Under the pieces are notes generated by a model. The model was not told where the DNA came from. It saw only the letters and a program-made list of their open reading frames with translations, and ran no database searches. 34,385 nt of DNA, from NCBI GenBank assembly GCA_903919075.1, contig CAIXGR010000016.1, positions 1-34,385 on the forward strand. Direction: 5' to 3'. The translations under genes and the position numbers were made by a program. This document shows positions 8,340 through 21,697 of this stretch, piece after piece; the stretch's first letter is position 1; each line of letters opens with the position of its first letter. This DNA comes from an uncultured Bacteroidota bacterium. Its GTDB lineage: Bacteria; Bacteroidota; Bacteroidia; Chitinophagales; LD1.

Positions 8340-10240
8340 TATTTTGAGAATTTAAATCTCACGGTTCCTTCAAAATTTCTTCCGGGCATGGGGCGCTGAA
8401 CGTATGCCTGATATTGCTTATTGCTTAAATTGTTAGCCCGAAGAGATAGTCCTAATTCTACTGTTTTAAATACAAACTCTTTACCAATCTCGATATTGGA
8501 AATAAAGTAGCCGCTTAAAGATTGAGAATTATCGGTGGTTACATAAACCAGTCCGGTATATGTATTTACTGAGCGAATATAAAAACGTCGATACGCAAAT
8601 TGCATTCCCGCCGTAACGTTGTGATAAGGTAAATAAATTAGTTGCTTTCCCATTGATTGATCGGTGGGGGAGAGAGCATCAAGATTTGTAGTTTTGGTAA
8701 AAGTATATGAGGCATTAAAATGAAAAGTAAACTTTCGTGGGTTATCATCAATTGCATTGGTGAAATGAACACTAGCTTCTATGCCGCGTGAGAAAACACG
8801 CTTTAAGTTTTCAGCCTGCCAAATGTTGCCTGCCGGTGTCCATTGAATCCAGTTTTGAGCATAGATGTAAAAGTTTGAAACAGATACTTCTGCAATTTTT
8901 TTCCATGAATATTTGGCCTGTATTTCTTCGTTTAAAGATTTTTCTTCTTTTAAATTAAGGTTGCCACCCGGCACCCAATAGAGGTCGTTGAGAGTTGGGA
9001 AACGAAAGTTACGTGAAGCCATGATGCTGGCTGAGAAATGATGTTCATGCTTTAGTTTCGGTGAATAAGTAATGGAACCCTCCGGTGCGAATGCTGAAAG
9101 ATTATTATCCACCAAATCTTCTCTGAAGCCAGCATGGAAAATGAATATTTCTCGAAAGTAATAATCTCCGTAGCATCGTATGCCTTCTACATTTCTTGCT
9201 TTGTTGGAGCCATAATCCTTAATATTCGCTTGCTCGTGTTCGTAATTTACCTCGCCGTTTAGTGCCAGGTTGAAAGCAAACATATAAGAAACATTGAATT
9301 TGTTTCGTGATGCATAAGTTGTGCTTATCTCATCCAGCAACGCATTGGGGTCTTTGTAGCGCAAATAATCTTTCATCCACGCTGTTGTGAATTTGAGTTT
9401 TACGCCGTGGAAATTTCCTTTCCAATCCATCATTGCACGAATGGAATAATCATCCTGAGTTTGTGCACTGGTTGATTGGCTCATTAGTGGCGCTAATTGC
9501 CTGTTGACATTGGTAAACCAGCCGTAAAAATTTAGCTGCTGGTTGGCATTAATTTTAGCGTTGAATTGTTGCAAAACAGAAAGTTGCTTTACTGTTGCAT
9601 TGGTTTGATAAACTACAGGATTCCCTTCAGCGTAATTGTTGACATAAGGAAAATTATTTAAGCTGGTCAGATAAACAAATTTAGTGGAGCCTGAAAATTT
9701 TCCTTTTGCATATTGGGCATCTAATGCAGTATTGTATGTAGCAAAACTGCTGGCGCGAAATAAAACACCGATAGAGAATCCGCTATCGCGTTTTATTTCG
9801 TTATTCAAACGTAATATTCCACCTATGTTACCCTGATAACCGGTGCGCACTAATTGCAATTCATCTTGCGTAGCAATTAAAAATTGTGAAATATCTTGTT
9901 GGCCCAGAGAGGGGGAATTGAGGCGTATGCCGTTCCATTCTATAGAGGTTTGTTCGGCTGATGTGCCGCAAAACGATAAGGTTGCCAACCCACCGTTACC
10001 ATAGTTTTTTACGTGAACCGAAGAAAATTCGCTCAGTGCATCGCTTAGCCTTTCGCCTTGTCTGTATTTTAAATCGGTGAAAGGAGAGGTGTTGCTAACG
10101 TTATTTGTAAGGTGTTCGGTTTTTACAACTTCATTTAAGGCGATAGTATCTTTTCCTACCTTGCCCTCTAATTCCCCAAAAGGGGAACTGCCCCCGCGCA
10201 GGAAAGTGAAAAGTAAGATAAATACTAATGTCGTTTTCAT
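8339..10240 (-). CDS. btuB: TonB-dependent outer-membrane cobalamin receptor
   Basis: A 633-residue receptor. After the signal sequence, residues about 35-165 form the plug domain: DTIALNEVV is a TonB-box-like segment, RQGERLSDALSEFSSVHVKN and GGLATLSFCGTSAEQTSIEW are plug motifs, and QLVRTGYQGNIGGILRLNN ends it. The rest consists of alternating aromatic-rich beta strands of a barrel. The gene overlaps the preceding gene in ATGA and the following one in TAATG. The N-terminus is odd: residues about 15-27 (RGGSSPFGELEGK) are encoded by a dispersed palindromic repeat, which lies just where signal cleavage should occur. Cobalamin specificity comes from the upstream riboswitch and neighbours. Confidence 0.88.
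   Translation of the reverse strand: MKTTLVFILLFTFLRGGSSPFGELEGKVGKDTIALNEVVKTEHLTNNVSNTSPFTDLKYRQGERLSDALSEFSSVHVKNYGNGGLATLSFCGTSAEQTSIEWNGIRLNSPSLGQQDISQFLIATQDELQLVRTGYQGNIGGILRLNNEIKRDSGFSIGVLFRASSFATYNTALDAQYAKGKFSGSTKFVYLTSLNNFPYVNNYAEGNPVVYQTNATVKQLSVLQQFNAKINANQQLNFYGWFTNVNRQLAPLMSQSTSAQTQDDYSIRAMMDWKGNFHGVKLKFTTAWMKDYLRYKDPNALLDEISTTYASRNKFNVSYMFAFNLALNGEVNYEHEQANIKDYGSNKARNVEGIRCYGDYYFREIFIFHAGFREDLVDNNLSAFAPEGSITYSPKLKHEHHFSASIMASRNFRFPTLNDLYWVPGGNLNLKEEKSLNEEIQAKYSWKKIAEVSVSNFYIYAQNWIQWTPAGNIWQAENLKRVFSRGIEASVHFTNAIDDNPRKFTFHFNASYTFTKTTNLDALSPTDQSMGKQLIYLPYHNVTAGMQFAYRRFYIRSVNTYTGLVYVTTDNSQSLSGYFISNIEIGKEFVFKTVELGLSLRANNLSNKQYQAYVQRPMPGRNFEGTVRFKFSK
10157..10198. repeat. Palindromic repeat, family A copy 2, inside the btuB coding sequence
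   Basis: The core hairpin is TTCCCC-AAAA-GGGGAA (10172-10187). Ends and order (TACC, CCCTCT, TCCC, AAAAGGG, CCCCGCG) match the intergenic copy at 2223-2290, which has an extra inner palindrome. The frame of btuB reads straight through it. Confidence 0.7.
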
Positions 10241-11256
10241 TCAACAATTAATTTTAAATTGAAGTTTGTGTTTACTGCAGTTGCATTGATAAAATATATT
10301 CCGGGACTTAATGAAGATGTATTGATACTTATAGAATTATTTGAATGTAATGCTATCTCTTTCCCTTGTTTTACTACCCTGCCACTTAAATCATAAGCCA
10401 CTACATTGTTTAACCGGTTATCTGATTCTATAAAAACTGTGTTGCCTTGTTTTACCGGATTGGGATAAATCACAGTCTTTGTATCTGAAATATTGCTTAT
10501 TGCGTTTGGGGCTTTTGCATTTATAACACCAACTGCATCAAGATCGAAGCCACCCGAGGGGAAAGCTGTTGGCCAGGGGTCGTTAATTATATTACCTTTT
10601 GAATCGTAGGTGGCGTATAACGGATTAATACTTCCTACTACATCAATAATGCGCAAATGAGTAACGTTATTAATATCCAATCCAACTGAATCTGCGAGTT
10701 CTTCCAAATCGAAAGGAGTGCCGTAGTTGGCTTTATACTTGCCGGCCAAGTTGTTTATTTGTCCGCCATCTATTGGTATAAATGACGCTATTTGCATACT
10801 GTCCTGAACATGTGATTCGGATGGAAAGCGGAAAAAGTGAATACCGTCGGAACTTACTTCAACAAAACCTAATTCCAGAAAGGCGAGGTTGGAATCATTG
10901 GTCATAAAACCATTTTCGAATATGGCAAAATCAAATCCCTCGCCATTATAAATTGCATTATTAAATGTAACTGTTGCTATACCGCCATCGCCAAGGCTAA
11001 CAACGCTTCCATCCGGTGCACCCATAGCACTTGTATCTGCCCCAGCACTTGCATAACCTAGCGATGAATTGGCTATATTAATAAAGCCACGCTGAACAAT
11101 ACAACCCGTTGCCCATTCGGTAAAGGCCGATGAATCGGCAGGCATTGCGGTGCTACCCGGTAGGCCCGCTACCGGTTCAAATTGCGATTGTGCAGTATTA
11201 AAGAAAAGCAACACCGCAACTGCCTGAAAGAAAAATTTTCTGGCGAAGCAAAACAT
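10237..11256 (-). CDS. T9SS-sorted surface protein of the B12 operon
   Basis: About 339 residues. Start chosen at ATG 11256 rather than TTG 11265 because a strong signal peptide (FFFQAVAVLLFFNTAQSQ) follows at once. The main domain (to about residue 245) is beta-rich with GAPDGSVVSLGDGGIATVTF, GEGFDFAIFENGF, LELGFVEVSSDGIHFFRFP, VTHLRIIDVVGSI and FPSGGFDLDAVGVIN. Proteins of this look occur in Bacteroidota surface loci, but I do not know a proven function. The last 75 residues are a type A T9SS tail (VIYPNPVKQGN, VAYDLSGRVVKQG, LSPGIYFINA). It lies between the BtuH-like gene and btuB and ends in an ATGA overlap with btuB, so a role in surface B12 capture is a reasonable inference. Confidence 0.8.
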   Translation of the reverse strand: MFCFARKFFFQAVAVLLFFNTAQSQFEPVAGLPGSTAMPADSSAFTEWATGCIVQRGFINIANSSLGYASAGADTSAMGAPDGSVVSLGDGGIATVTFNNAIYNGEGFDFAIFENGFMTNDSNLAFLELGFVEVSSDGIHFFRFPSESHVQDSMQIASFIPIDGGQINNLAGKYKANYGTPFDLEELADSVGLDINNVTHLRIIDVVGSINPLYATYDSKGNIINDPWPTAFPSGGFDLDAVGVINAKAPNAISNISDTKTVIYPNPVKQGNTVFIESDNRLNNVVAYDLSGRVVKQGKEIALHSNNSISINTSSLSPGIYFINATAVNTNFNLKLIVE

Positions 11257-11267
11257 ACTGAACAAGT

Positions 11268-12512
11268 TTACTGTTTAGTAATTTTCGCAATGGTTGAGCC
11301 TTCTGCCGAAATTAATTTGATTAGATATGTCCCAGCAGCAAGGCTGCAAGCATTTATCTCAGTATTAGTTTCAACAGGATTGCATGATACCTCTTTTATT
11401 AAGCGCCCTTCTAAATCATACATTCTAATTTCTTTGGTGCCCGATTTATGAGATATGAAAAATGAATTGCTGAACGGGTTTGGATAGATTCTATTTTCGA
11501 ATGAAGCAATTGCACTGACACCTGTTAATCCGGTAACGTTTATTGCTATTTGTGCCGTGTCGCATTGGTTGTCAATATCGCAAACACTGTATGTAATTAT
11601 ATCTTGTGCCACAACCCCTATAGTAGGTATGTACCAAATGTTATTGGCCGAATCAACTAAAGCCGAAGCGCCATCAATGGTTGGGCCGTTAATCAGATGC
11701 ACGGTAAGAAGAACATTGAAAGAATCAACAGTGTAATTGCTGATTACATTGATAAGTGTGTCTTGTTCGTAATTAATAGTTATCGAGCCATCAGACACCA
11801 CGGGTGCCGGATTTGAGCGATCGGCAGTTGTAAAATTATCGATACAGAAATATGCGGGGGTGTTCATTCCATATTGGCTATTATCGGTTGATGACAAATG
11901 GAAAATAATGCTATCTGCATTGCCTAAGGTACTTAAGTTAACCCACTGCCAGGTTTTTAGTATGTAGTTTTGTGTAGTATCTGCAAACCTGAAATCAGCT
12001 AAATAAAAATCTACTGAATCATTTTTGAGAACGCCGTTATACCATGCTTTGGCTGTAAGTTTAAGCCAATCGTTCGGGCCGAATTTTTTTGCAAAAGCAT
12101 CACCATTCAACATGCTTAAATAATCGAGGGTGGCGTTGGTTACATAAAAGCCTGCCGCCATTCCACCGGTGGCAGTGCCGGTAAGATAAATTTTCGCATT
12201 ACCATATTCGTCAGCAACTGCATAATTCCCGGAACCACCGTAACCTGCGGCTGTAATAGCGCTATATTGATTGCCGTAACCGGGTGTAGTGCTATCGCTC
12301 ATGTTTGAATATGAAAAGCCGCTCCATGCCTGGTAGGTGGTATCATAAGAATTAGCGAAACGGGCATTTCCACTATTAAAGCCACCGGATAAATCTGACC
12401 CGTTCCAAAAAGTATCTGGCACCAGTGCAAGGTTTTCGAAAGTGGCAACGGTTTGTGCCTGTGATAAGAAAGCGATAAAAATCGCTGCAAAAATCAGGTT
12501 GATTTTTTTCAT
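11268..12512 (-). CDS. BtuH-like DUF4465 surface protein with T9SS tail
   Basis: The first gene of the B12 operon, 414 residues. A signal peptide (to about residue 19) is followed by a DUF4465-type domain (about 20-230): PDTFWNGSDLSGGFNSGNA, WSGFSYSNMSD, TPGYGNQYSAITAAGYGGSG, AGFYVTNATLDYLSMLNGDA, FAKKFGPNDWLKLTAKAW and CIDNFTTAD. Next comes an Ig-like linker (about 235-330) and a type A T9SS sorting domain (RIYPNPFSNSFFIS, MYDLEGRLIKEV, AGTYLIKLI). From memory, the B12-binding surface protein BtuH of gut Bacteroides belongs to this domain family. Here the protein is not a lipoprotein but T9SS-exported. The start ATG at 12512 lies about 110 bases after the riboswitch. B12 binding is inferred. 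Confidence 0.82.
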   Translation of the reverse strand: MKKINLIFAAIFIAFLSQAQTVATFENLALVPDTFWNGSDLSGGFNSGNARFANSYDTTYQAWSGFSYSNMSDSTTPGYGNQYSAITAAGYGGSGNYAVADEYGNAKIYLTGTATGGMAAGFYVTNATLDYLSMLNGDAFAKKFGPNDWLKLTAKAWYNGVLKNDSVDFYLADFRFADTTQNYILKTWQWVNLSTLGNADSIIFHLSSTDNSQYGMNTPAYFCIDNFTTADRSNPAPVVSDGSITINYEQDTLINVISNYTVDSFNVLLTVHLINGPTIDGASALVDSANNIWYIPTIGVVAQDIITYSVCDIDNQCDTAQIAINVTGLTGVSAIASFENRIYPNPFSNSFFISHKSGTKEIRMYDLEGRLIKEVSCNPVETNTEINACSLAAGTYLIKLISAEGSTIAKITKQ

Positions 12513-12622
12513 GAATTCAATTTTTTTAATGTTTGAAAAAATCGCCCCGAAAATGAAAGAAGGAAAAGAAACGGAATTAAGTTTCGATTCACGGCTTTTC
12601 TTCCCGAAAGCTTGAAAATTAT

Positions 12623-12820
12623 TTGTAAAGGCAGGTCTTCTGGTTTTCCCGATTCTTGTATCCTTCCCATCTGGCGAATGCCGGACAGTGGATGATGTAT
12701 TTACAAGAATTCATCCCGCAATTAAGCGGAACGGGATTACAGCAGCGGGTACTACTCCTGAATTTCACAGGATTCCCTATTAAGGCTATTCATTTTAACA
12801 TGAATAACGCCACCTTTAAC
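12623..12820 (-). promoter_or_regulatory. Cobalamin riboswitch (B12 element)
   Basis: Read on the minus strand, the conserved core appears in order. P1 5' side is GTTAAAGG near 12820; a hairpin GCGTTATTCA/TGAATAGC follows; then AATAGGGAAT, GTGAAATTCAGGA, the hallmark GTACCCGCTGCTGTAAT, CCACTG, GGGAAGG, and the B12 box AACCAGAAGACCTGCC with CCTTTAC closing P1 at about 12624. It sits in the leader of the seven-gene B12 operon and should lower expression when adenosylcobalamin or a related cobalamin is plentiful. I see no strong intrinsic terminator between it and the first ATG, so control may be at translation initiation or by an unseen structure. Confidence 0.92.
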
Positions 12821-12824
12821 TATG

Positions 12825-12857
12825 CAAAGGAAATTATTTATTTTCAACCGCCAAAAA
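12825..12857 (-). promoter_or_regulatory. Candidate Bacteroidota promoter of the B12 operon
   Basis: On the minus strand, TTTTTG (12852-12857) lies 19 bases before TTCCTTTG (12825-12832). This is close to the Bacteroidota primary-sigma pattern of TTG and TAnnTTTG with about 19-21 bases between; the -7 box has one mismatch. The expected transcript start, a few bases further, coincides with the first base of the riboswitch P1 stem, which supports the call. Confidence 0.5.
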
Positions 12858-13276: not shown

Positions 13277-14659
13277 TTAAAATACGAATCCGGCTATCTT
13301 AAAAACTGTTCGGGTTGTAACGCTCGGATTTTCGTTCATTACAAGAGGGCTTACAATATTTACCGCTGATTTGAGCATTCTATACGAACGCCCTATTTTT
13401 GAAGGGGTAGGGAAGGGTTTTATAATATTGCCTATACCAAAAAAGGCTACTGCAAAAAAATGTTTCAGCAATAAATCAACATCACGAGTGTTGGCAGATA
13501 AAATAGATACCGGTTCGTTGGCATACAAGCCGCCGCGTTGCATGTAACCATAGCACGCTACTTTTAAATCTTCATTTTTCATTACACCGTATAGTGCATC
13601 GGCTAAAATATTAATTGTTGCATTTTGTTTGTGGCGCGATTGGTAAAACTCTTTTACCGTGTCATCTATTACCGCAACATTTTTGAATGGATAAATATTG
13701 ATGAGCTTGTCTCCCAAATTTTTAATATCGGTGAAAGCCGCTGTCATGCCTCCACCGGTTAAGGGGTGGCGCATGTTTAATGAATCGCCAATTAATGCAG
13801 CACCGGGTTTGAATATAGGGGTGGCTGGTATTAGGTGATTTGGCATTACTTTAAATTTACCTTCTTCCACTGCTGCTTTAAATGAGGGAAGAATTTGCGG
13901 CGGCATTTGCGGCGCGATGGTATTGTTCAGGTAGTCTAATAACTCTGGCGACTTGCGTGGTGCCTCGGGCGAAGGAAAGTCTATTAGAATACGTGTTTCA
14001 GTAGTGGAGATAGGATAAACTAAGCAAGGCGACGGTTTAGCAACAATTACATGGCCAAAGTTTTTGTAGGGTAGGTCGCAATTTTTAAGTACCATGCCTA
14101 AAAAATAGCTGCTTACCTTTTTTACGTTTTTTGAAAGTCCTTCGCGGAAAATTGAAAACATGCCGTCGGAAACAAGGGTAAGGCTGGCTTCAACTATTCT
14201 TTCATCATCATCTTTTTTAGCTATATATTTTACACCGGTTACTCTTCCGTTTGCTTCAACTAACTCTGTTGCGCTTCCTTCGAAAACAGTTACATTGGGT
14301 AGGTTAAGAATGTATTCGCGGATTCTTTGAAGAAACTTGCCATTACGAAAACCCCGACCGGTGAGCAATTTTCCATTTGCAGTTGGATATGAAATTTTGA
14401 AATTCCCATCATTCATAAAAAGCCCGTAGCCTTCCACCGGTTGTGCATCGAATCCTTCCAGCACAGCTTCCAATCCCATTTCTTGTAGTTTTATTACGCC
14501 ACCGGGTTGTAATAATTCGCCGATGATGCGTTCCTGCTCGGCAAGGCTTTTTTCTATTACGGCTACATTTAATCCGTTTTTACCTAAGTATGCGGCTAAA
14601 ACGCCACCGGCTACTCCGGCACCTATAATACATACATCAAATTTTTTTGTTACGCTCAT
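13277..14659 (-). CDS. sqmo: Squalene monooxygenase (squalene epoxidase)
   Basis: A 460-residue FAD-dependent monooxygenase of the eukaryotic squalene epoxidase type, converting squalene to (S)-2,3-oxidosqualene with O2. The FAD-binding GAGVAG is at residues 13-18 and the Glu after the second strand lies in VAVIEKSL. The segment RIIGELLQPGGVIKLQEMGL and DAQPVEGYGLFMNDG are squalene-epoxidase hallmarks. The DG motif LVSDGMFS is near residue 165, and the second FAD motif IGDSLNMRHPLTGGGMT at 290-306 is nearly as in animals and fungi. The N-terminal anchor helix of animal enzymes is absent, but hydrophobic C-terminal segments like the eukaryotic membrane-associated ones remain (from about residue 396). 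It is 151 bases downstream of squalene synthase, same strand. Start ATG 14659. Confidence 0.93.
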   Translation of the reverse strand: MSVTKKFDVCIIGAGVAGGVLAAYLGKNGLNVAVIEKSLAEQERIIGELLQPGGVIKLQEMGLEAVLEGFDAQPVEGYGLFMNDGNFKISYPTANGKLLTGRGFRNGKFLQRIREYILNLPNVTVFEGSATELVEANGRVTGVKYIAKKDDDERIVEASLTLVSDGMFSIFREGLSKNVKKVSSYFLGMVLKNCDLPYKNFGHVIVAKPSPCLVYPISTTETRILIDFPSPEAPRKSPELLDYLNNTIAPQMPPQILPSFKAAVEEGKFKVMPNHLIPATPIFKPGAALIGDSLNMRHPLTGGGMTAAFTDIKNLGDKLINIYPFKNVAVIDDTVKEFYQSRHKQNATINILADALYGVMKNEDLKVACYGYMQRGGLYANEPVSILSANTRDVDLLLKHFFAVAFFGIGNIIKPFPTPSKIGRSYRMLKSAVNIVSPLVMNENPSVTTRTVFKIAGFVF

Positions 14660-14810: not shown

Positions 14811-16007
14811 TTAGAACAATATTGTTTGTTCAATATTACTTTTTTTAGGAGGCGCAGTTTGATTATACTTTATATCATCTAAAGCCTCAGTAATTCTATT
14901 TAAGCGTTTTTTAGTAAGTGTGTAGTTAGGGTCGGCAGTGTTCAGCTTTTTACGGATGCCACTTGCAAATTTTTCCATCGATATCCTTACACTTTCCATA
15001 TCGTTGGTGTAAAGCATCAATTTTGCAGCTATACCTTTTCTTATTTTAACTACCTCGGTAAATACATCAGGGTTGTTGTAAATTTTTGCCAGCGTTGCCA
15101 TTGCCATTACCTGTGGTATAGCGCAAAAACGGAATATCTGTTTATCCTGAATCATGCTTAAATACTTCAAGCAGTATTCTGCCTGTTCAAGCGCATCAGT
15201 AACTAATTCATTGATACAAGCCAGCGATTCGGATGATGCAGGGCTTTTCTGCAATTCTTCAAGCCGCTCGGCGTATTTGCCCCAAATTTGTTTAGGCCAG
15301 AAGGTTCTGCTTAAACTTAAATCCTCGTAATAATCGCGAGCGATGTTGGTTTTTTGAAGCAGTAGGCCCATGCTGTTAGCCAGTTCGTATTCTTCTTTAA
15401 GTTGTGGTGATTCTAAGCCCGATGCTGAAAATAAAGAGGAGAGGCCTATTCCTACCAAACCTGCCACATAGTAACAGTAATCGTTATAATCTTCAAGGGT
15501 TACTATTTTGCGTTCGGCGTAATCGGCCATGCCGTTGCCCATTTTTTTGCAAATATCAGCTATAACCACCCGGTAACTTTCATCAAGTGCCAAATAAACG
15601 TTAATTACCTTATGGAAGTTCTCCAATAAAATGCGGTAATCATGTGCATCGCCAACGTTTTTAATATTCCAACCATTTTCGTTTAATTTTTGGTGAAAAT
15701 TGCGCAGAAGGGGAAGCCTGAGGGATGCATCATAATTCATATCATCTTCTACAGAATCTAAGCCCCTCAACACCAAATAAAATATGCAAACAGGGTCTTT
15801 TAACTGCTCGGGAAGTTGTTGAATAACAATGGCAAACGAACGAGATACCCGGTTAAGAGCGGCATAACAAAAATCGCGGTCGTTTAACTCGGTTGCAAGT
15901 TTATCAAGAGGCTGTTTATCATCTTGTATGGTGTTACTTAGCTTAATTTTAACCATAGCTAAAACTTCGGAGGGACGATGTGCAGATTTTAATAAGTCTG
16001 TAATCAT
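14811..16007 (-). CDS. sqs: Squalene synthase, eukaryotic (FDFT1/ERG9) type
   Basis: Joins two farnesyl diphosphates via presqualene diphosphate and reduces the product to squalene with NADPH. I chose ATG 16007 (398 residues) over TTG 16076 because the protein from there aligns with the start of the animal enzyme (HRPSEVLAMVKIKL against its HPEEFYNLVRFRI). With that numbering the first Asp-rich motif DSVEDD is at 84-89 and the second, DYYED, at 225-229. Other hallmarks are SRSFAIVIQQLP, CIFYLVLRGLD, YVAGLVGIGLSSLFSAS, ANSMGLLLQKTNIARDY and FCAIPQVMAMATLA. These match the one-protein eukaryotic class rather than the HpnC/HpnD/HpnE route common in bacteria. The C-terminal membrane anchor of animal and fungal forms is missing. 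Confidence 0.93.
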   Translation of the reverse strand: MITDLLKSAHRPSEVLAMVKIKLSNTIQDDKQPLDKLATELNDRDFCYAALNRVSRSFAIVIQQLPEQLKDPVCIFYLVLRGLDSVEDDMNYDASLRLPLLRNFHQKLNENGWNIKNVGDAHDYRILLENFHKVINVYLALDESYRVVIADICKKMGNGMADYAERKIVTLEDYNDYCYYVAGLVGIGLSSLFSASGLESPQLKEEYELANSMGLLLQKTNIARDYYEDLSLSRTFWPKQIWGKYAERLEELQKSPASSESLACINELVTDALEQAEYCLKYLSMIQDKQIFRFCAIPQVMAMATLAKIYNNPDVFTEVVKIRKGIAAKLMLYTNDMESVRISMEKFASGIRKKLNTADPNYTLTKKRLNRITEALDDIKYNQTAPPKKSNIEQTILF

Positions 16008-16180
16008 TTTTTGAAGTTTTTGTTTAAGGCGAATTTTAATAAAGCCAAAGTAATAACGAATTTCGCGCAAATACAATGCGCGGCTTTGGCAAAATTGTGT
16101 GCAAGATTAACAATAAAAACGGATATTTACTATAAATAGCTGATACTTATAATGTTAATAGAACAGAACCCCTTGGTTTA

Positions 16181-16248: not shown

Positions 16249-18507
16249 ATGGAATACTGGCAATATTGGAAGTGTGAAACAGACGACGTGGGAAGGCAGG
16301 TGTGGAGTTTTACCCCGCCTAAGGAATTTTCGGGTTATAGTGATAAGGATTGGGAAAGTGTCGAGGGGCAGAAATTTCTTACCCAAATGGGGGCTTCGTT
16401 TTTTAGTTTAAAAAATCAGGAAAACCCCAACAGTGCCGATAAGGTTTACCGTCAGCAAAAAGAAGTAACCCTTACCCCACAAAAGTTTAGCGATAAGGTA
16501 TTTGAGTCAGCATATAATGGCATACAGTATTACCAAACGCTACAGGCCGATTCAGGGCACTGGCCGGGCGATTATGGCGGGCCACTTTTTTTAACACCGG
16601 GCTTAATTATTGCAAGCTATGTTACCGGAGTTCCATTTCCGGCTCCTTATCGTGAATTGATTAAACAATACTTCTTGAATCATCAAAATGCCGACGGAGG
16701 TTGGGGCTTGCATATTGAAGCGCCATCAACCATGTTTGGAACAGTGTTGCAATATGTCGCCTTGCGCATATTGGGTATGAAGGCCGAAGATGCACCCGCA
16801 TTAAAAGCAAAAACCTGGATACACAATAACGGCGGTGCTACCGGTATACCATCATGGGGTAAATTTTACTTATCGGTATTGGGTGCGTACAATTGGGATG
16901 GAGTAAACTCATTAATACCCGAAATGTGGTTAGTGCCTCGGGCGTTACCGGTGCATCCGGGCCGGTATTGGTGCCACGCACGTATGGTTTATTTGCCTAT
17001 GGCATATTGCTACGGTAAAAAAGTGGTTGGCGAAATAACGCCATTAGTAAAAGAGCTACGCGAAGAACTATATACCGAAAGTTACGACAAAATTAACTGG
17101 AGCCAAGCGCGCAATAAATGCGCAGCAGCCGATTTGTATTATCCGCAATCGGGTGTATTGAAAGTATTCAACCGGTTGCTAAATGTATATGAAAAAGTTG
17201 CCATAAAAAGCCTGCGTAAAAAAGCCACCGATTTTATTTTAGAGTATGTTGATGCCGAAGACGACCACACCAAATTTATTGATATAGGCCCGGTTAACCA
17301 GGTTATCAATTCCATTTGCGTTTGGCACGCGTATGGTAAAGATTCGGTACAGTTTAAAAAGCATACCCAGCGCTGGTACGATTATTTGTGGCTGGCTGAA
17401 GATGGTATGAAAATGAACGGGTACAACGGTTCGCAACTTTGGGATACCGCATTTGCCACACAGGCAATAGTTGAAAACGGGTTTGAAAAGCATTTCCCGG
17501 AAGCGGTGAAGAAAGCTTTTAAGTATGTTGATGTTTCGCAGGTAAAGGTAGAGGTGCGCGACCATAAAAAGTTTTTCCGGCACGATTCGGTAGGAGGGTG
17601 GCCCTTTTCAAATGTCGACCACGGCTGGCCTATTACTGATTGTACGGCGGAGGGATTAAAAACTTCGTTATTGGTTTCAGAAGCCTCCAATTCAGAATTA
17701 AAAATAGCTGATGACCGGTTGAAGCAGGCGGCAGATTTAATCCTGTATTTCCAAAACAAAAACGGAGGTTGGGCTACTTACGAATTAACACGGGCACCGG
17801 AGTGGCTCGAGTTATTGAACCCTTCAGAAGTGTTCGGAAATATTATGATTGATTACTCTTACGTAGAGTGTTCATCGGCCTGCGTGCAAAGTTTAATACG
17901 CTTTAGCAAACATTACCCTGATTATAAAAAACAGGAAATTGAACAGGCAGTCCGTAAAGGCATAAGCTATATTATTTCGCAACAGCGCGATGATGGCTCA
18001 TGGTATGGTTCTTGGGCGGTTTGTTTTACATACGGCGGGTGGTTTGCGGTTGAGGCTTTAACAGCAGTGCTTGAAGCAGGAATGATGCGTGATAGCGAAG
18101 CCATGATTAAAAACGTTTTGGACAAGGCTGCTAAATTTTTGCTTTCGAAACAAAATGCCGATGGCGGTTGGGGCGAAAGCTTTCAAAGTTGTGTAGAAAA
18201 AAAATATGTGCAGAACGCGACATCGCAAATAGTAAATACTTCGTGGGCTATACTTTCGCTCATGGCTTTGAATTACCCCGATAAAACTGTTATTGAAAAA
18301 GCGGTTACGCTGTTGCAAAGCCGCCAATTTGAAAACGGCGATTTTCCTCAGGAGAATATTAGCGGGGTGTTTAATCATAATTGCTCTATTAGTTATACTG
18401 CTTATAGAAATGTGTTTCCTATTTGGGCTTTAGGTCGATATTGGAAGATGTATGGGGGTGGAGTGGCTGGTTCTATTGAAAAGAATGCTTTGAGCGAGTT
18501 AGCATGA
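16249..18507 (+). CDS. osc: Oxidosqualene cyclase, predicted cycloartenol synthase type
   Basis: A 752-residue triterpene cyclase acting on 2,3-oxidosqualene, usually membrane-bound by a hydrophobic patch. The catalytic motif is DCTAE (Asp464), not the DxDD of squalene-hopene cyclases. HPGRYWCHARMVYLPMAY around 236-253 and SYVECSSA around 537-544 are oxidosqualene cyclase signatures; Cys465 and Cys541 are the expected partners of the catalytic Asp. Several QW repeats are visible (near 147-153, 503-508, 579-590, 634-641). Residues steering the final deprotonation are Tyr392 (KMNGYNGSQ), His458 and Ile462 (HGWPITDCT), equal to Tyr410/His477/Ile481 of Arabidopsis cycloartenol synthase; lanosterol synthases carry Thr, Gln/Cys and Val there. 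His243 and Tyr511 match the other conserved active-site pair. Cycloartenol is therefore the predicted product; the family call is very secure, the product less so. Confidence 0.95.
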   Translation: MEYWQYWKCETDDVGRQVWSFTPPKEFSGYSDKDWESVEGQKFLTQMGASFFSLKNQENPNSADKVYRQQKEVTLTPQKFSDKVFESAYNGIQYYQTLQADSGHWPGDYGGPLFLTPGLIIASYVTGVPFPAPYRELIKQYFLNHQNADGGWGLHIEAPSTMFGTVLQYVALRILGMKAEDAPALKAKTWIHNNGGATGIPSWGKFYLSVLGAYNWDGVNSLIPEMWLVPRALPVHPGRYWCHARMVYLPMAYCYGKKVVGEITPLVKELREELYTESYDKINWSQARNKCAAADLYYPQSGVLKVFNRLLNVYEKVAIKSLRKKATDFILEYVDAEDDHTKFIDIGPVNQVINSICVWHAYGKDSVQFKKHTQRWYDYLWLAEDGMKMNGYNGSQLWDTAFATQAIVENGFEKHFPEAVKKAFKYVDVSQVKVEVRDHKKFFRHDSVGGWPFSNVDHGWPITDCTAEGLKTSLLVSEASNSELKIADDRLKQAADLILYFQNKNGGWATYELTRAPEWLELLNPSEVFGNIMIDYSYVECSSACVQSLIRFSKHYPDYKKQEIEQAVRKGISYIISQQRDDGSWYGSWAVCFTYGGWFAVEALTAVLEAGMMRDSEAMIKNVLDKAAKFLLSKQNADGGWGESFQSCVEKKYVQNATSQIVNTSWAILSLMALNYPDKTVIEKAVTLLQSRQFENGDFPQENISGVFNHNCSISYTAYRNVFPIWALGRYWKMYGGGVAGSIEKNALSELA

Positions 18508-20599: not shown

Positions 20600-21577
20600 T
20601 TAAAACTCCCGGTTATTAATCTTCTCAGCAAGTTCAAACAAAGGCTCTTTCAATTCTTTATCTATCGAAATATTCCGCAACGAATCTAGCGCCCCTAAAT
20701 AAAGTTCGTTCGACTTGTGGTTTGTTTGCTGGCGGGCACCGGTAACCTCGAAAAGATTTTTTGCAGCTGCAATTTTTTTCTCTTCGTCTTGCTCGGTTAA
20801 CAGCGCGGTAAATTGCTCTTTTTGTTCTTTGTTGGCGCTGTTCCATCCGGTAACGTACAGGTAGGTTTTTTTGTTCATTAATATATCGCCGCCAATGCGC
20901 TTACCCACCTTGGCCGCTTCCCCAAAAGAATCTAAGTAATCATCTTTTATTTGGAACGAAAGGCCAAGTTGTAAGCCGAACTCATAAATCAATTTCTGGT
21001 TTTCCTCGCTTGCTCCGGCAAGTATGGCACCCGCCTTAAGGCAACAGCCTAATAGTACCGAGGTTTTAAACTCAATCATTTTCAAATATTCCTCCTCGGT
21101 AACATCCATTCGTTTTTCGAAATCAATATCCATCTGCTGCCCTTCGAAAATTTCGATAGCTGTCTTATTAAATATGTCAAGCAATGCCGGAACGTATTGA
21201 GGAGAAACTTTGGTAAGAAACTTATAAGCATATGATAGCATGGCATCGCCGGCAAGTATGCCCGAATTAAGTCCGAACAAAGTATGCACCGTAGGGAATC
21301 CCCGACGAATGTCAGCCTTATCCATAATGTCATCATGCACCAGTGTAAAGTTGTGGAACACCTCCATGGCAAATGCCGGGTTCAATGCTTCTTCAACACT
21401 ACCGCCAAACATATCGCAGCACATTAATAACAGCAAAGGGCGAATACGCTTTCCTTTAATGCTCATAATATGGTTAACCGGGTTGTAAAGGCCCGATGGA
21501 GTAGTACGAAAATTATTAACTCCTGCTTTTGCCTCGAATTGAGTAAGAAGTTGCTGCTGGGTAAGCATAGTGCGCAT
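20600..21577 (-). CDS. Short-chain polyprenyl (farnesyl/geranylgeranyl) diphosphate synthase
   Basis: Trans-prenyltransferase of about 325 residues that condenses isopentenyl diphosphate with an allylic diphosphate. The first Asp-rich motif is LVHDDIMDKADIRRG and the second QIKDDYLDSFG; KGKRIRPLLLLMCCDMFGG and KTSVLLGCCLKAGAIL also fit. A Phe five residues before the first DDxxD is the position that limits chain length, so a C15 or C20 product is expected. The motif lacks the two-residue insertion typical of bacterial IspA. ATG 21577 is taken as the start; ATG 21568 and TTG 21595 are also in frame. It could supply farnesyl diphosphate for squalene synthase 4.6 kb away, but nearly all Bacteroidota have such a gene, so the neighbourhood may be coincidence. 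Confidence 0.88.
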   Translation of the reverse strand: MRTMLTQQQLLTQFEAKAGVNNFRTTPSGLYNPVNHIMSIKGKRIRPLLLLMCCDMFGGSVEEALNPAFAMEVFHNFTLVHDDIMDKADIRRGFPTVHTLFGLNSGILAGDAMLSYAYKFLTKVSPQYVPALLDIFNKTAIEIFEGQQMDIDFEKRMDVTEEEYLKMIEFKTSVLLGCCLKAGAILAGASEENQKLIYEFGLQLGLSFQIKDDYLDSFGEAAKVGKRIGGDILMNKKTYLYVTGWNSANKEQKEQFTALLTEQDEEKKIAAAKNLFEVTGARQQTNHKSNELYLGALDSLRNISIDKELKEPLFELAEKINNREF

Positions 21578-21697
21578 ATGTGTATTGCCTGTCAAAGTGG
21601 TTCAAAATATAGGGCAATGATAGGAAATTTTGAACAGTAGTAAAGGCATTCAGAATTGAAAATGAAAAAACACCTCACTAGCTGCACTTTTTAGTAG

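Follow-up and report, generated by a model that had tools for sequence, protein, structure and literature searches.

Described bacterial oxidosqualene cyclases (Osc) are sorted by three residues into those that make cycloartenol and those that make lanosterol. In human numbering, Wei et al. (2016; PMC4919349) give Y381/H449/I453 for cycloartenol and T381, C449 or Q449, and V453 for lanosterol, in passages that also refer to an earlier comparison of three bacterial cyclases, for which position 453 alone held true. Among the bacteria tested there, V453 went with lanosterol and I453 with cycloartenol, and the passages concerned report no exceptions; the rule is correlative and covers few bacteria. 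Cycloartenol was found in the bacteroidete Fluviicola taffensis and in Methyloceanibacter caenitepidi, as the sole product type seen in each, and the tested methanotrophs made lanosterol-derived sterols (PMC4919349).

A second paper (2016; PMC5101207) gives five lanosterol-type patterns (T,C,V; T,Q,V; Y,Q,V; Y,H,V; Y,N,V), three of which carry Tyr, and Y,H,I as the cycloartenol type of F. taffensis and algae. The bacteria named with Y,H,I in its relevant section are F. taffensis and Stigmatella aurantiaca; 'Y,H,V' is once printed for the cycloartenol type, apparently as a slip. For Myxococcota, PMC12004948 (2025) predicts cycloartenol-type enzymes in Myxococcaceae, in a section that takes the cyclase as ancestral there. 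Neither a bacterial Y/H/I enzyme nor cycloartenol in a bacteroidete is new, and the locus described here adds an example.

The window, by which we mean the whole 34,385-nt stretch of DNA analyzed, has a GC content of 39% and is contig 16 in the genome of an uncultured Bacteroidota bacterium (3.53 Mb, 97 contigs, estimated 99.6% complete). It contains a cyclase gene with the following features:

16249..18507, plus strand: oxidosqualene cyclase gene, intact open reading frame of 752 aa, identified by Pfam and by its match to human lanosterol synthase (LSS)
17422..17424, plus strand: codon of Tyr392, aligned with human T381
17620..17622, plus strand: codon of His458, aligned with human C449
17632..17634, plus strand: codon of Ile462, aligned with human V453, the position that tracks the product in bacteria by the rule of PMC4919349
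17638..17652, plus strand: DCTAE motif, beginning with the codon (from 17638) of the catalytic Asp464, human D455

The encoded protein matches both halves of the triterpene cyclase family (PF13243, 196.7 bits; PF13249, 162 bits). In phmmer, human LSS (1w6k) scores 743.9 bits over residues 83-736, and the plant oxidosqualene cyclase TwOSC1 (8j5z) scores 585.5 bits; identity is about 48-50% to the human enzyme and, by structural alignment, 40% to TwOSC1. An AlphaFold2 model (mean pLDDT 90.6) superposes, as a predicted structure, on 1w6k with Z 50.7 and an rmsd of 2.0 Å over 688 residues. Sequence and modeled fold are those of a eukaryotic oxidosqualene cyclase, the catalytic motif at D464-C465 reads DCTAE, and the catalytic Asp is kept in all 87 bacterial rows of our alignment that cover the position. 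The matching Pfam models bear the name of squalene-hopene cyclase, as would be expected if a hopene enzyme had been mistaken for an oxidosqualene cyclase. We give that reading practically no weight: squalene-hopene cyclase reaches only ~140 bits compared to the 743.9 bits of human LSS, it has DVDD opposite the ITDC of the window's ITDCTAE, the predicted model fits it at Z 36.5 compared to 50.7, and a squalene epoxidase gene adjoins the cyclase.

At 35 positions of human LSS taken to lie in or next to the cavity, 27 residues are identical in the window cyclase. These include Y98, H232, W192, W230, W387, F444, D455, C456, Y503, F521, C533, W577, W581, F696, Y704 and Y707 (human numbering). The eight differences, written human to window, are I338V, T381Y, C449H, I452P, V453I, S454T, S699N and S706A. 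Human LSS therefore shares the fold, DCTAE and most of these 35 positions with the window enzyme and differs from it in having T381/C449/V453 in place of Y/H/I.

An initial annotation had equated Tyr392, His458 and Ile462 with the active-site triad of Arabidopsis cycloartenol synthase and predicted cycloartenol as the product. The three residues are encoded, with D464, within 17420-17660 as it had said, and by phmmer they align with human T381, C449 and V453. The same pairings are found in an 89-row MAFFT alignment, and they sit in the conserved blocks GxNGSQxWDT and xGWxxxDCTAE; they are taken from these sequence alignments, not from superposition of the model. The protein has Ile at human 453, where a lanosterol synthase would have Val, together with Tyr and His at human 381 and 449, as in cycloartenol synthases. 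We take the Arabidopsis numbering to be Y410/H477/I481. It agrees with PMC6423090, which in the relevant passage names I481 and the D483 of DCTAE, spaced two residues apart like I462 and D464. Arabidopsis CAS1 thus resembles the window enzyme in its Y/H/I set (cycloartenol-type per PMC4919349); unlike it, CAS1 is eukaryotic, and the plant comparison made here is with TwOSC1 only.

To place the triad among its relatives, we aligned 87 distinct relatives with the window cyclase and human LSS (89 rows; L018 ends before position 449). The rows are those nearest to the window rather than a sample of all bacterial cyclases: the named relatives are the best 80 of 352, the set is without myxobacteria, planctomycetes and cyanobacteria, and eukaryotes are represented by human LSS and TwOSC1 only. 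Y/H/I occurs in 33 rows (window included), Y/N/V in 24, Y/Q/V in 20, Y/H/V in 5, A/H/V in 4 and Y/Q/I in 1; the human enzyme is T/C/V. Presence in 33 of the 87 readable bacterial rows, window included, indicates that the Y/H/I set is inherited and not a product of chance. The Y/H/V rows are titled Crocinitomicaceae, Fluviicola, Taishania or Flavobacteriales. The single Y/Q/I enzyme (L098, 10001-12217) is from a Flavobacteriales metagenome-assembled genome (MAG), in a locus with an epoxidase-squalene synthase-cyclase layout; by analogy with plant mutants, it might make parkeol.

These counts refine the argument for cycloartenol. The description of lanosterol synthases as carrying Thr, Gln or Cys, and Val applies to animals and fungi only, since other lanosterol-type patterns carry Tyr. 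Y/H/I stands as evidence for cycloartenol through Ile462 (Ile is present in 34/87 bacterial rows), with support from His458; Tyr adds none because it is found in 84/88 bacterial rows, methanotroph cyclases of the Y/N/V and Y/Q/V kinds among them. What separates the cycloartenol from the lanosterol types is position 453 and, in part, 449. The predicted product is in this way backed by the rule at position 453, which fitted the bacteria tested in PMC4919349. We consider it likely, judging from homology and aligned residues, that the window gene encodes a genuine oxidosqualene cyclase of the cycloartenol-synthase type in a Bacteroidota genome, cycloartenol being its predicted product.

The mechanism and product proposed here draw on published relatives and general knowledge of the family; gene intactness, fold, aligned residues, neighborhood and tree were computed. 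Squalene synthase would supply squalene, and the neighboring epoxidase would convert it to 2,3-oxidosqualene. Asp464 would protonate the epoxide, and folding of the chain would yield the protosteryl cation, followed by the lanosteryl cation. This cation would be held by His458 together with Tyr392, and by the bulk of Ile462, so that the proton is lost from C-19, closing the 9,19-cyclopropane ring of cycloartenol, and not in the way that leads to lanosterol.

Other cavity positions can shift the product of a cyclase, and the V/I state does vary near F. taffensis: a Fluviicola sp. record (L089), 52% identical to the window, has V453. The window enzyme could accordingly be a mixed-product cyclase, forming cycloartenol together with substantial parkeol or lanosterol; changes at these positions of the plant enzyme reportedly give mixtures (mutants of the Matsuda laboratory), and at about 48-50% identity to human LSS other cavity positions could matter. 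We regard this as unlikely, given that the cycloartenol type is seen at each of the three positions and that F. taffensis and M. caenitepidi gave cycloartenol only in the results described in PMC4919349.

Methylococcales provide a second comparison. Their cyclases (44 rows within L047-L101, with methanotroph or methanotroph-symbiont titles and two gammaproteobacterial MAGs) belong to the same bacterial clade as the window enzyme, are 50-55% identical to it and in most loci have a squalene epoxidase gene close by. They differ in being Y/N/V (24) or Y/Q/V (20). The clade membership, the lanosterol type of these cyclases by residue 453 and the lanosterol-derived sterols of the tested methanotrophs (PMC4919349) could be taken to mean that the window enzyme is a lanosterol synthase in spite of its triad. 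That is highly improbable: all 44 rows combine V453 with N449 or Q449, unlike the window, and the relevant part of PMC4919349 reports no exception to the rule at 453 among the bacteria it tested. Two Methylothermaceae MAGs (L029, L031) have Y/H/I cyclases that lie apart from other Methylococcales in the tree; by sequence, they are possibly cycloartenol-type methanotrophs or binning errors.

The F. taffensis Osc (Fluta_3214) is like the window cyclase in coming from Bacteroidota, in its I453 (PMC4919349) and Y,H,I set (PMC5101207) and in having a squalene epoxidase in the genome. The records L089 and L084, with Fluviicola or Taishania titles, differ from the window, being 52% identical to it, with Y/H/V and another gene order. 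Judged by the Fluviicola-titled records, the F. taffensis enzyme is not a close relative of the window cyclase.

We built a quick tree of 88 rows (with TwOSC1 added and the incomplete L018 and L102 dropped) and a more careful one of 57 rows, from which the triad columns, TwOSC1 and 30 of the 44 methanotroph-clade rows were removed, and used only the forks common to both. With the exception of the four A/H/V rows, all bacterial rows group in one clade that excludes the human enzyme (98/97 in the careful tree, 99 in the quick tree). Within it, the window cyclase groups with three rows of the same genus (L004, L023 and L032; 100/99). Two nested clades contain V453, namely that of the methanotrophs (100/100; the careful tree has 14 of its rows) and a Crocinitomicaceae/Flavobacteriales clade (100/100) of five Y/H/V rows plus L086, which is Y/H/I. 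The remaining branches are all Y/H/I, except for the Y/Q/I row L098. The sister of the methanotroph clade is L045+L097 in the quick and careful trees and L030 in a third, unfinished run; the placement of L029+L031 shifts among trees, and the backbone of the Y/H/I branches, mostly unresolved, also varies from run to run.

Two placements in the tree are odd in their own right. L086, titled as a Glaciecola amylolytica complete genome, falls within the clade of Fluviicola/Taishania cyclases and shares their gene order, at a locus GC content of 37%; it is perhaps a mislabeled genome or a transfer. The cyclase of an Akkermansiaceae MAG (L097, 10001-12133; 66% GC locus) pairs with that of Chitinophagales L045 (100/99), by either inter-phylum transfer or a binning error.

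The careful tree requires at least four I/V changes, with the step to the human and A/H/V outgroups included. A single origin of V453, with the V rows and L086 held together, is rejected with p-AU 3.6e-5, an optimistic value because the groups were named after the tree was seen. This is the fairer of two tests; holding the 19 Y-x-V rows together gives p 5.0e-113 but forces out L086, which is nested among them. By parsimony, the spread of Y/H/I over most branches, with V453 in two nested clades, makes Y/H/I the ancestral state of this clade. We lean slightly toward the reading that in this bacterial clade, which is centered on Bacteroidota, Y/H/I is ancestral and gave rise to Val453 on two or more occasions: in Methylococcales along with a change of His449 to Asn or Gln, and in the Crocinitomicaceae/Flavobacteriales Y/H/V group, which has one Y/H/I member inside, without any change of His449. 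Both outgroups carry V, so V may have changed to I earlier, ahead of the clade's origin; the branches that join the outgroups are long. The Y/H/I-first reading runs opposite in direction to a suggested Y,H,V lanosterol-type bacterial ancestor discussed in a section of PMC5101207, though our tree contains none of the enzymes on which that suggestion was built (Gemmata, Methylococcus capsulatus, Stigmatella).

Whether plant-type specificity is ancestral or gained by transfer had also been raised by the initial annotation. Inside the bacterial clade, the tree supports Y/H/I as the older state; with two eukaryotic enzymes sampled, an old transfer from a eukaryote may still have founded the clade. 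If a cycloartenol synthase had been acquired recently from a plant or alga, a triad equal to that of plants would be explained, and this reading is thinly tested with human LSS and TwOSC1 as the eukaryotic sequences in the tree. Such a transfer is nonetheless very unlikely, as the window and its three same-genus rows lie inside the bacterial clade apart from the human enzyme, TwOSC1 also falls outside that clade (quick tree), identity is only 40% to TwOSC1 and 48% to human LSS by structural alignment, and the order of the epoxidase and squalene synthase genes is common to many Bacteroidota loci.

Three further genes of the window bear on the pathway:

13277..14659, minus strand: squalene epoxidase, 460 aa (PF08491, 278 bits; squalene monooxygenase structure 6c6n, 292.7 bits), predicted to supply oxidosqualene to the cyclase
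14811..16076, minus strand: squalene/phytoene synthase family protein (PF00494, 170.5 bits), 421 aa counted from the first listed TTG start, with a true start that may lie inside
20600..21595, minus strand: polyprenyl diphosphate synthase, 331 aa (PF00348, 248.1 bits), possibly for precursor supply

The epoxidase expected of a partner to such a cyclase is thus within the window, and it and the squalene synthase gene adjoin the cyclase gene and diverge from it. This layout (epoxidase and squalene synthase on the minus strand, cyclase on the plus strand) occurs in at least 17 of the 80 named loci, the best 80 of 352 relatives, and a polyprenyl diphosphate synthase homolog is on the cyclase locus in 17 of the same 80. 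Methylococcales loci differ, with the epoxidase downstream of the cyclase on the same strand in at least 41/80 named loci, every one of which is a record from a methanotroph or a methanotroph symbiont. The layout counts are lower bounds because contig ends cut some loci. Elsewhere in the window, genes neighboring the cyclase encode Por_Secre_tail domains, which, like the titles of the nearest named relatives, are consistent with Bacteroidota, and no tRNA was found. A cobalamin riboswitch (RF00174, 74.6 bits; 12613-12832, minus strand) precedes genes for a TonB-receptor plug, a periplasmic binding protein, a FecCD permease and an ABC ATPase, probably a vitamin B12 uptake operon.

The genome has one PF13249 cyclase-family match, one squalene epoxidase match, one ERG4/ERG24-type reductase homolog and eight FA_hydroxylase matches, and nothing in it matched P450. 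A search for sterol methyltransferase gave no match in this genome, nor did it match its own controls, and it is uninformative. With one cyclase, one epoxidase and no P450 found, the simplest end product would be the cyclase product itself, as for F. taffensis, in whose genome the epoxidase and cyclase are present and no later sterol genes were found according to the relevant part of PMC4919349. A C-14 demethylase would be a P450, and with none found in the genome the pathway probably ends in cycloartenol or a slightly modified derivative; later modification is possible given the reductase and FA_hydroxylase matches.

Among the 30 genomes of the window's family, 26 have P450 matches, the window's own not among them, and 26 have matches to ERG4/ERG24-type reductases, several of them without a cyclase match. 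We rejected these reductases as a sign of cycloartenol use because they also occur in cyclase-less genomes of the family. In a same-genus relative (L116, genome G010; 8583-11344), a P450 gene adjoins that of an ERG24-like reductase, which matches the delta-14 sterol reductase 4quv at 197.5 bits; by position, the same holds for L114 and L115. The best solved relatives of the L116 P450 (one of 65 listed) are LUTEIN DEFICIENT 5, carotene epsilon-monooxygenase and P450 BM3. We did not accept it as a C-14 demethylase, there being no CYP51 among the best 60 of its 437 matches.

The cyclase has a match at 1e-60 in 17/30 genomes of the family and in 25/298 of the order, the window's own included in each. 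In the phylum sample, matches were found in 5/395 genomes, the window's own and four of a distant type (33-34% identity). Patterns matched 25 stretches of viral contigs, none of which was a relative.

In one Bacteroidota order, a distant cyclase type with DCTAE is fused in one frame behind a squalene epoxidase-family FAD monooxygenase. The fusion type is present in 7/114 genomes of that order, six with a single frame (L128-L133, the same genes as in L020-L022) and the seventh with the halves at contig ends (L134, L135). Three measured frames span 1139-1153 aa, Pfam domains were checked in three, and the cyclase part is A/H/V in the four rows read. Judged by its reading frames, the gene appears to be a natural epoxidase-cyclase fusion; no such fusion was found in the literature among the matches listed.

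Taken together, the living Y/H/I, Y/Q/I, Y/H/V, Y/Q/V and Y/N/V cyclases would, by their aligned residues, form a single-step series between cycloartenol and lanosterol synthase. We found no survey of such a natural triad series among the open-licence papers listed. Single and double changes at I481 and H477 of Arabidopsis CAS1 reportedly shift the product from cycloartenol toward lanosterol or parkeol, and H477N I481V is said by Matsuda's group to give close to pure lanosterol. If these mutants behave as reported, the Y/N/V methanotroph enzymes would use the H477N I481V pair of changes, the Y/H/V rows would match the single I481V and L098 the single H477Q. With natural enzymes that are ~50-66% identical to the window enzyme, the order of changes could be tested beside the plant-enzyme mutants. 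Whether lanosterol or cycloartenol came first bears on the reading of steranes in old rocks and on where eukaryotes got their sterols, and the window enzyme is of value for where it falls, in a clade with natural intermediates.
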